Source: Syntrophothermus lipocalidus DSM 12680 (GTDB lineage: Bacteria > Bacillota > Syntrophomonadia > Syntrophomonadales > Syntrophothermaceae). Taken from it: a DNA stretch of 64,000 nucleotides. A program made the position numbers and the translations under genes. Under the pieces are notes generated by a model. That model saw nothing but the letters and a program-made list of their open reading frames with translations. It was not told the origin of the DNA and searched no databases. The DNA lies in assembly GCF_000092405.1 (NCBI RefSeq), contig NC_014220.1:1612001-1676000 (forward strand). Direction: 5' to 3'. Shown piece after piece: positions 20,332 through 34,274 of this stretch. Positions within the stretch are counted from its first letter, which is position 1; every line of letters begins with the position of its first letter.

Positions 20332-20479
20332 CAGGTATCCTCCTTTCTCTCCTCAAACTCTAAGGCCGGCATCTAGCCCCACCAGCCCCGGAGGACCCCT
20401 TTGTCCCCATCCTGTTCGGTGACAACGCTCCTTTGCATCTCACCTCTTCCAGAACCACTCGATGCCAGATATGAGGTAT

Positions 20480-21830: not shown

Positions 21831-22406
21831 CTAATCTTTGGTTTCTTTTCCGATTTCATAAGTCAAAATAATCGCCCTTGCAACCTCACGGACGGGAATC
21901 CCTTTGTTCATGCTCTGCTTTTGTATCAGCCGGTGGGCTTGTTCTTCATCTAGGTTCATCGTTTTCATAAGTATACCTTTGGCTTTCTCCACAACCTTGC
22001 GAGTATTCAGGGTCTCTTTCAGTTTCTGAACCTCCTTGCGTAGTCCCCGAATTCGTTCACGATACAGAAGAGCGGCGTCAACAGCAGCCACCAAACTCGT
22101 TTCGGTTACTGGGTAAAAACAGTAATGGAACTCTTTAAGGTCGGGGTTATCCCTTCGCCTGACCATAATCAGGATTGCAGCCAAGTCATCTGACTCGATG
22201 ATACGGGCTGCCTCCAAGGCATTACCACCTTCCAGCCCTTCGTCAATGATGACAAGATCCGGCAATACAGTCCTCACCTTGCGCAGCATGTCCGGCACAC
22301 TGTTAGCTTCGGCCAGTACTTGGCATCCTAACCGAACCAACCCGTCCCTCAAAGCTGAGCGTCTTGTTTCTGAAGCGTCTGCTACGAGAACCTTTATCCT
22401 GGGCAC
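21831..22406 (-). CDS. Response-regulator-like protein with ANTAR RNA-binding domain
   Basis: Predicted transcription antiterminator. The N-terminal 115 residues are a receiver-like fold and keep the phospho-acceptor position (Asp55 in LVIIDEG). It has only one acidic residue at the first pocket (VADASE), and the usual Lys-Pro loop reads FYPV, so phosphorylation is uncertain. Residues 130-190 are an ANTAR domain ([32 protein letters not shown]). GTG at 22406 follows GGCGGTGA. It is co-transcribed with glnA. Its likely targets are the leader hairpins described here. Confidence 0.9.
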
Positions 22407-22425
22407 AATCGTATCACCGCCTCTC

Positions 22426-22486
22426 AAAAAAAAAGCCGTCTCGACCGTGATCAATCCGTATGATCTCCGTCGGGACGCCATTGTCC
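22426..22486 (-). promoter_or_regulatory. Attenuator leader of the ANTAR-glnA unit
   Basis: On the minus strand, GGAC-AATGGC-GTCC (22486-22473) forms a hairpin with a six-base loop having A at position 1 and G at 4. The alternative is a terminator: GGCGTCCCGAC (22479-22469) pairs 9 of 11 with GTCGAGACGGC (22445-22435), followed by nine T (22434-22426). The two exclude each other. A second weak hairpin (GATCA/TGATC) lies in the terminator loop. It sits 20 bases before the ANTAR start. Confidence 0.6.
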
Positions 22487-22573
22487 GCAAAAATCACCAA
22501 AAATCCTTATCCTTCATGTTACCAACCTCAATTCTATCAATTCTGGTCCAAATATCAATAACCGCATCTATCA

Positions 22574-22598
22574 TATACTGTATACTTGCAAAGTATAC
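22574..22598. promoter_or_regulatory. Palindromic promoter element upstream of the ANTAR-glnA unit
   Basis: GTATACTT-GCA-AAGTATAC is a perfect 8-3-8 inverted repeat (22580-22598). It overlaps TATACTGTATACT (22574-22586), which recurs exactly upstream of glnB (28608-28620). It looks like an operator for a dimeric regulator, not identified here. Confidence 0.5.
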
Positions 22599-22742
22599 CT
22601 GCATAGGGTCGTACCCGGTTCAATATGCCTGGCCCCTTAACGGAGTTAAGCATCGGAGCCGCCGTCAACGGGATATAATATGAGTCGCGGCCGAGCAAAA
22701 TGTGGGGATAATGTATACTTGACGATTTTGGCTCTTGATGCA

Positions 22743-22770
22743 TTGACATTAGTTGGCCCTTAGGTATAAT
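22743..22770 (+). promoter_or_regulatory. Sigma-A promoter of glnA2
   Basis: Consensus TTGACA (22743-22748), a 16-base spacer and consensus TATAAT (22765-22770). Transcription would start near 22777 and give a leader of about 230 bases. A GTATAC element lies just upstream at 22713-22718. Confidence 0.88.
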
Positions 22771-22800
22771 CAAGCTAAAAAGGATATAGATATGTTTGTA

Positions 22801-22873
22801 GCGGCATATGCTTGCCGCCAACCAGGGACGATGAAGTCCTTCCTTCAAACGAAGGGAGGGCTTTCTTTTTTTG
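22801..22873 (+). promoter_or_regulatory. ANTAR-type two-hairpin antiterminator and terminator of glnA2
   Basis: Hairpin 1: GCGGCA-TATGCT-TGCCGC (22801-22818). Six bases later, hairpin 2: GGGAC-GATGAA-GTCCT (22825-22840). Both have six-base loops with G at position 4; the A expected at position 1 of ANTAR loops is absent. The terminator stem is AGTCCTTCCTT (22835-22845) with AAGGGAGGGCT (22852-22862), 11 pairs including G-T, then TTCTTTTTTT. Its 5' arm uses the 3' arm of hairpin 2, so hairpin 2 and terminator exclude each other. Confidence 0.75.
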
Positions 22874-23005: not shown

Positions 23006-24445
23006 ATGATGACTCCAGAAGAAATTTCAGCACTGATAAAGGACAAAGGAATCACCTTCATCGACCTGAAGTTCAACGACTTACCGGGACTGTGGCAGCA
23101 CTTTTCCATGCCATCGAGTGAACTGACAGGAGTTGATAACGTCGCTGAAGGCGGTCTATTTCGAGAAGGCGTAGGATTTGACGGTTCCAGTATTCGTGGG
23201 TTTCAGCAGATTCAAGAAAGCGACATGATACTCATCCCGGATCCCGACACCGCGGTTATTGATCCGGTCTGTAAAGCATTCACCCTTTCCATGATATGCG
23301 ACATCTACGATCCGATTACCCGCCAGCCGTACAGCCGCGACCCGCGGTACGTAGCCAAGAAGGCCGAAGCCTACCTGAAATCGACCGGGATCGCCGACAC
23401 CAGCTATTGGGGCCCGGAAATGGAGTTCTTCATCTTTGACGACGTCCGTTTCGATCAAAGCGTCAACTTTGGGTACTACTATTTGGATTCGATTGAAGGA
23501 GAATGGAACACCGGGCGCCAGGAAAACCCGAATCTAGGTTATAAGGCCCGTTACAAGGAGGGGTATTTCCCGGTACCGCCCCACGACTCACACCAGGACC
23601 TGCGGAGCGAAATGGTTAAAGTGCTTATGGGAGTTGGGATTGGAGTAGAGGTTCACCACCACGAAGTCGCTAGTGGCGGCCAGGCCGAGATTGACATGAG
23701 GTTTGACTCGCTCGTACGCATGGCCGACAAGTGCATGATGTACAAGTACGTGGTCAAAAACGTGGCCCGGCGCCACAACAAGGTGGTCACCTTCATGCCC
23801 AAACCGCTATTTCAGGACAACGGCTCCGGAATGCATACCCACCAGTCCTTGTGGAAGGATGGGGTTAACCTTTTCTACGACCCCAAAGGGTATGGGCTTT
23901 TAAGCCAGCTGGCCAAGTACTACATCGGGGGACTGTTAAAACACGCCCCGGCTCTGATGGCATTCTGTGCCCCAACCACCAACTCGTACAAGCGGCTGGT
24001 CCCCGGTTTTGAAGCTCCCGTGAACTTGGTTTACTCCATGCGGAACCGGAGCGCGGCGATTCGTATTCCGGTATATACTGACAATCCAAAGTCCAAGCGC
24101 ATCGAGTTTAGACCGCCTGACCCGTCCTGCAACCCGTATCTGGCTTTCGCCGCCATGCTCATGGCCGGCTTGGACGGAATCGAAAATGAAATCGATCCGG
24201 GAGATCCCGTCGACAAGAACATCTATGAGCTCGACGAACAAGAAGCTGCCAAGATCAGAACTGTCCCCGGGTCTCTTGAAGAAGCCTTGAACGCCCTGGA
24301 AGAAGACCACGACTTTCTGCTCAAAGGCAACGTTTTCACCACCGACCTGCTCGAGGTCTGGATCAAGTACAAGCGGGAAAAAGAGGTCGAACCCATTAAA
24401 CTCAGGCCACATCCGTACGAGTTTCAGCTGTATTTCGACCTGTAA
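23006..24445 (+). CDS. glnA: Glutamine synthetase type I, beta-like (second copy)
   Basis: A 479-residue GSI, longer than the copy at 20480 and with an extra segment near residues 150-180, as in GSI-beta enzymes. Motifs: [45 protein letters not shown] and [11 protein letters not shown]. The adenylylation-loop tyrosine has an equivalent (NIYELDEQE), but no adenylyltransferase is seen in the window. AAAGGAGG precedes two in-frame ATGs at 23006 and 23009. It is alone on the plus strand behind its own promoter and attenuator. Confidence 0.94.
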
Positions 24446-27958: not shown

Positions 27959-28080
27959 ATCAATCCCTCCTCGTTTAGAGTAAAAAAAGCGCTAGTTATC
28001 TTCGACCGGTTGAGGTCCCCGGTCTCACCAGCGCCTTCGCTCGCTCTATTTTCGTTCTTTTACTACCGGCAACCCTCAGC

Positions 28081-28486: not shown

Positions 28487-28567
28487 GAAAAAGGCGCTTG
28501 TTTGTGATACTCAACGATCACCCAAGCGCCTTTGCCTGTCTCGCTTATGCAATTACCACGTTTAGTA
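28487..28567 (-). promoter_or_regulatory. Attenuator leader of glnB-amtB
   Basis: Hairpin CAGGC-AAAGGC-GCTTG (28538-28523 on the minus strand) has five pairs and a six-base loop with A1 and G4. It competes with the terminator AGGCGCTTG/CAAGCGCCT (28531-28523 with 28500-28492) followed by TTTTTC. The terminator's upper part is capped by GTGAT/ATCAC. Upstream is a small hairpin TACT-AAACGT-GGTA (28567-28554). GACAGGCAAAGG is shared with the asnB leader. Confidence 0.65.
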
Positions 28568-33927: not shown

Positions 33928-33943
33928 AGCATCCCTTTAAAGT

Positions 33944-34034
33944 AGTCCTGAGAGGCTAGCAAGGGAGGCCGGTTAGTACCAGGTTGATGGAGGTGGATTT
34001 CAAGCCTTCCCTGCTAGCGGGGAAGGCATTTTTA
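33944..34034 (+). promoter_or_regulatory. PyrR-type attenuator 2, upstream of carB
   Basis: Contains AGTCCTGAGAGGCTAGCAAG (from 33944), a near-perfect PyrR-binding loop. A terminator follows with stem GCCTTCCC/GGGAAGGC (34004-34011, 34020-34027) and ATTTTTATTT. The 240 bases between it and carB hold nothing recognisable. Confidence 0.88.
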
Positions 34035-34274
34035 TTTGATACACCGCATGAGGAAGTAGGGGAAAATCGTGTTTAAGCGGCGCAAGAACCGGTAAAAAAC
34101 AGGTCACAAACGAGGTCGCGGTCAGAATGGCTTTATTGTATCTGATGACGGGAGGAGGATATTGCCTCGGGTACCAGAGCAGCAGCGGCAGGAGGGTTCA
34201 CCACTGTAAGCTGCATGCCTAATACGAACTCTTTGGAAGCAACAACAGTAAACGCGTAGGGAGGAATCATTCGT

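Follow-up and report, generated by a model that had tools for sequence, protein, structure and literature searches.

The best-described ANTAR-dependent leaders, those of the EutV/eutP system of Enterococcus faecalis and of the NasR/nasF and AmiR/amiE systems, possess two closely spaced hexaloop hairpins (P1 and P2), both with a G at the fourth loop position (G4) (PMC3369931), with P2 being mutually exclusive with an intrinsic terminator and an ANTAR protein being encoded in the genome. In the account of Ramesh et al. (2012, PMC3369931) the motif is defined by G4 together with an A at the first loop position (A1), the changes A1 to U and G4 to A were tested, and the linkers between the hairpins of the eut leaders span 5-12 nt. 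Replacing A1 with U impaired induction by EutV, and mutation of position 1 weakened binding (PMC3369931). Similarly, SELEX with NasR favours A1, G4 and a C:G closing pair (PMC7496416). The crystal structure of EutV with RNA reveals G4 as the only base contacted specifically, and EutV binds single hexaloops (PMC8934654). Given that G4 is the sole specific base contact in this structure (PMC8934654), it is plausible that one purine can stand in for the other at position 1; the portions of the EutV and NasR work considered here contain no test of a G1 variant, with A1 to U being the only position-1 change reported for EutV.

The leader of glnA2, a glutamine synthetase gene (23006..24445, + strand; Pfam PF00120 and PF03951) of Syntrophothermus lipocalidus DSM 12680, lies at 22743-22872 on the + strand of the 64,000-nucleotide stretch that was analysed (the window, to which all positions refer). 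It is typified by a sigma-A promoter (TTGACA-16-TATAAT, 22743..22770, +) matching the consensus at 12/12 positions, followed by P1 (GCGGCA-TATGCT-TGCCGC, 22801..22818, +; six perfect pairs), P2 as the putative antiterminator (AGGGAC-GATGAA-GTCCTT, 22824..22841, +) and an intrinsic terminator exclusive with P2 (22834..22872, +). The terminator comprises 13 contiguous pairs, formed by a 5' arm at 22834-22846 and a 3' arm at 22851-22863 around an AAAC loop, with a T7 tail at 22866-22872, and 6/6 bases of the 3' arm of P2 lie inside its 5' arm. These observations bear out the original prediction of a consensus promoter, of two hairpins with the loops TATGCT and GATGAA, the second sharing its 3' arm with the terminator, and of T (P1) and G (P2) rather than A at position 1. 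Both loops also have G4. The 11-bp terminator stem that the prediction gave is corrected to 13 pairs, and its six-base spacing between the hairpins holds if P2 is counted as 5 bp and becomes 5 nt if it is counted as 6 bp.

This leader shares with the targets of EutV, NasR and AmiR the hexaloop pair with G4/G4, the sharing of bases between P2 and the terminator, the short linker and the presence of an ANTAR gene in the genome. Unlike them, it shows U1 in P1 and G1 in P2 instead of A1 in both loops, and its P1 is closed by A-U instead of C-G; the U1 of P1 is the very change that weakened eutP induction (PMC3369931). Since A1 is found in neither loop, the leader is filed as a purine-1 loop variant of the known kind of ANTAR antitermination leader and not as a canonical member, and a function like that of the family is well supported. 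A strict scan for A1/G4 loops plus terminator skips it, along with all other sites in the window. When the window was subjected to 30 dinucleotide shuffles, hexaloop pairs overlapped by a terminator arose at a rate of 0.43 per 64 kb, and at 0.07 per 64 kb if both loops had to carry G4. Folding of the leader gives z = -3.45, and the calculated energy is -19.0 kcal/mol for P1+P2 versus -31.4 kcal/mol for P1+terminator; given the greater stability of the latter, termination should be the default state.

The promoter, P2 and terminator are found upstream of glnA2 in 10/10 other Bacillota orthologues found (11/11 with the reference), whose leaders were recovered through protein homology or a covariance model, and the 12/12 promoter TTGACA-16-TATAAT is kept in 8/11. 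The P2 and terminator element is absent upstream of the more distant glutamine synthetase genes scanned outside this orthologue group. The P2 loops of the orthologues are AATGAA, AATGGA, AACGGA or AAAGGC, all with A1; their P1 loops, all with G4, include both A1 (AATGGC, AGCGTC, AAGGTT) and G1 versions (GCTGAA, GCTGTT, GCGGTT, GATGTT). At glnA2 P1 is odd in two close relatives, with a loop of 5 nt in G001 and an unclear hairpin in G003, and its stem is weak in the L079 leader. Stem conservation in homologous glnA2 leaders had been set beforehand as the check on the prediction, and the stems are kept: across eight trimmed leaders five pairs of P1 and P2 are changed on both sides, with ten compensated cells, a value that 0/500 shuffles reached. 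The aligned hairpins were chosen for their hexaloops, which makes percent pairing partly a matter of construction and the compensatory changes the better evidence. MAFFT misaligned the hairpins in untrimmed leaders, and linkers were therefore trimmed for models A2, A3 and A5.

The 2.41-Mb genome encodes exactly one ANTAR protein, a response regulator that is the probable trans factor (21831..22490, - strand; PF03861, E=1.9e-22; true start probably a GTG near 22406), and its gene is divergent from glnA2 and adjoins the glnA2 leader. This adjacency, together with the stems kept in relatives, supports the ANTAR geometry that had been proposed. The divergent side comprises the ANTAR regulator, a second glutamine synthetase and glutamate-synthase genes, while farther along lie ammonium transporter and P-II genes. 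The receiver domain of the regulator is atypical: the phosphorylatable Asp is kept, the acidic pair DD is changed to DA and the conserved Lys to Tyr. These losses, of the Lys and in the acidic pocket, may allow activation without phosphorylation. Unlike in EutV, four of the RNA-contact residues are changed (Y164H, R168Q, R175G and R177P), with 7/11 kept; since relatives with A1 loops also differ at these positions, the changes do not explain the loop variant. Y164H in particular is ruled out as the cause of G1 loops, for G001 combines Y164 with a G1 loop, and H164 occurs with A1 loops in G007, G006 and G053. A palindrome, GTATACTT-GCA-AAGTATAC, is present upstream of the ANTAR promoter (22570-22600), one half site of it recurs before glnA2 (22711-22720), and the arrangement AAGTATAC..GTATACTT precedes the amtB, nifH and glnB promoters (L153, L156, L178). 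These sites probably serve as the operator for a second nitrogen regulator, one that acts on DNA. Elsewhere in the window an ordinary pyrimidine attenuator with a PyrR binding site (Rfam) is found at 33930-34035.

Several further leaders of this type were recovered in the same genome, by inspection and by covariance model R1, whose ten seeds did not include the second amtB and nifH elements that it found; several covariance-model matches within coding regions were thrown out. A first group displays A1/G4 loops and was added through the R1 scan and inspection. It comprises a canonical dual hairpin (AAAGGA, AAAGGG; 20391..20439, -) before the glutamate-synthase amidotransferase gene gltB, with a counterpart in G001; the glnB leader, with P2 CAGGC-AAAGGC-GCTTG and a terminator (28488..28538, -); and the ANTAR gene's own leader, in which P2 GGAC-AATGGC-GTCC and a terminator with T9 were recognized by inspection (22426..22486, -). 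The ANTAR gene of G003 likewise has P2 and a terminator in its own leader, an organization that may mark autoregulation; the terminators in these ANTAR-gene leaders were read by eye, and an automatic scan allowing few mismatches gave none. A second group displays G1/G4 loops: the amtB leader has a weak P2 of only 3 bp, AGC-GAAGGC-GCT, with a terminator (27982..28041, -), a second amtB is preceded by P1 CCGGC-GAGGTA-GCCGG, P2 GGGAT-GAGGAA-GTCCC and a terminator, and nifH by the loops GAAGCA and GAAGAA with a terminator, its P1 stem being only 3 bp. Because both loop types share a genome with a sole ANTAR gene, one protein would serve both. The amtB/nifH leaders are closely similar to those of another family (f30) and may have arrived with a transferred nif cluster, whereas the glnA2 leader belongs to the native set. 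Common to the amtB, nifH and glnB leaders is a second element of ~90 nt, located ~100 nt past the first attenuator, with a nested hairpin (CCGC-hexaloop-GCGG within CCGG/CCGG) and a long terminator with GGAAC-RNNGNN-GTTCC as its cap. It occurs at L153 and L156 (minus strand), L178, L185, L192, L235-L238, L240 and L249, within the phylum draw only in the source genome and one other family, and matches no Rfam family.

A survey with model R2, covering 398 genomes from the phylum and also the order, recovered 36 leaders that were not among the seeds; they come from 21 genomes, and most stand before glnA, amtB, glnB, nifH or ANTAR genes. Their loops have A at position 1 in 44 cases and G in 26, and G at position 4 in 70/70, a constancy partly selected for, as all model seeds had G4; the TATGCT of the glnA2 P1 is the sole T1 loop. 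An ANTAR gene is present in 22/22 genomes with leaders (source included) versus 202/398 in the draw (p = 3e-7, only a rough guide as the genomes are related), and A1 and G1 loops occur together in eight further genomes that encode just one ANTAR protein. When loci chosen by homology were scanned for structure alone, with no loop requirement, the yield was 12 overlapping sites versus 0.125 per shuffle, five of them with G4/G4. In G001 tandem P2-plus-terminator units, with the loops AATGGG and then GAAGGG (L053:11317-11662, minus strand), stand upstream of a glutamine amidotransferase gene and of a urease operon. These leaders are reminiscent of the predicted nitrogen regulons of Desulfotomaculum reducens and D. 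acetoxidans, where several attenuators per genome are likewise placed before glutamate/glutamine synthase, P-II and ammonium-transporter genes (PMC3369931). They differ in that A1/G4 was fixed in the seed of that search (PMC3369931), while here G1/G4 makes up more than a third of the loops, nifH leaders included. In actinobacterial ANTAR RNAs position 1 is also less strictly A (>50% conserved), but, unlike the Bacillota leaders, these are mostly not linked to terminators, and the part of that account considered here describes no G1 class (PMC8164766).

The suggestion that the variant loop is read by the organism's own protein is thus supported, with two qualifications: G1/G4 recurs at amtB, nifH and in many single-ANTAR relatives. 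The variant is, first, no special feature of this protein, which would be expected to act on the A1/G4 elements of gltB, glnB and its own gene as well. Second, the T1 loop is unique and may simply represent a weakened P1. Carried further, the latter view would make this a degenerate ANTAR leader in which P2 and the terminator work, P1 with its U1 and A-U closing pair goes unrecognised, and control is weak or exerted by P2 alone, which is a sub-case of the ANTAR attenuator explanation and not an alternative to it. Both the uniqueness of TATGCT and the odd P1 of G001 and G003 at glnA2 would fit this, as would the sufficiency of single hexaloops for EutV binding (PMC8934654); however, P1 retains its six perfect pairs and G4, and we regard this degeneration as possible but doubtful. 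A plain intrinsic terminator without regulation, with hairpins arising by chance, might be suggested by the stability of the terminator alone (-20.0 kcal/mol), but there is no upstream gene on the + strand that needs one, and a structure rare in shuffles and kept with covariation in 11 leaders renders it very improbable. Equally improbable is another kind of leader control by riboswitch, T-box or leader peptide, as no Rfam family reaches threshold for the glnA2 leader, and leader-peptide attenuation is rejected because the frame from the ATG at 22792, which has a candidate ribosome site, passes through the leader and enters glnA2 without an early stop, and no ATG is seen at the matching place in the G001 leader.

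Thus, the glnA2 leader is very probably an ANTAR-controlled, nitrogen-responsive and purine-1-tolerant transcription attenuator. Its anatomy, its conservation, its place in a regulon and its co-occurrence with ANTAR genes are observed here, while protein binding, the nitrogen signal and the direction in which control acts are inferred. Transcription would start constitutively at the consensus promoter and, with no active ANTAR protein, the 3' arm of P2 would pair downstream into the terminator and stop transcription before glnA2. Under nitrogen shortage the ANTAR protein encoded next door would become active and bind first the P1 hexaloop and then that of P2, in each case via G4, and P2 being held, the polymerase would read through into glnA2. 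Such a protein would accept either purine at position 1, and P1 with U1 would probably be its weakest site. More tentatively, and with the odds rather against it, G1/G4 hexaloops might form a natural class of their own among ANTAR sites, used alongside A1/G4 sites by one protein to grade its targets, with such loops in the nif/amt leaders also capping a second terminator, a geometry for which the literature examined gives no precedent among ANTAR attenuators.

As ANTAR searches have fixed A1/G4, about a third of the loops found here could score poorly and their sites be missed. Allowing either purine at position 1 brings to light a candidate nitrogen regulon of glnA, amtB, glnB, gltB and nifH, with urease in a relative, under one ANTAR protein, and the G1 loops offer a direct test of what the ANTAR domain reads.
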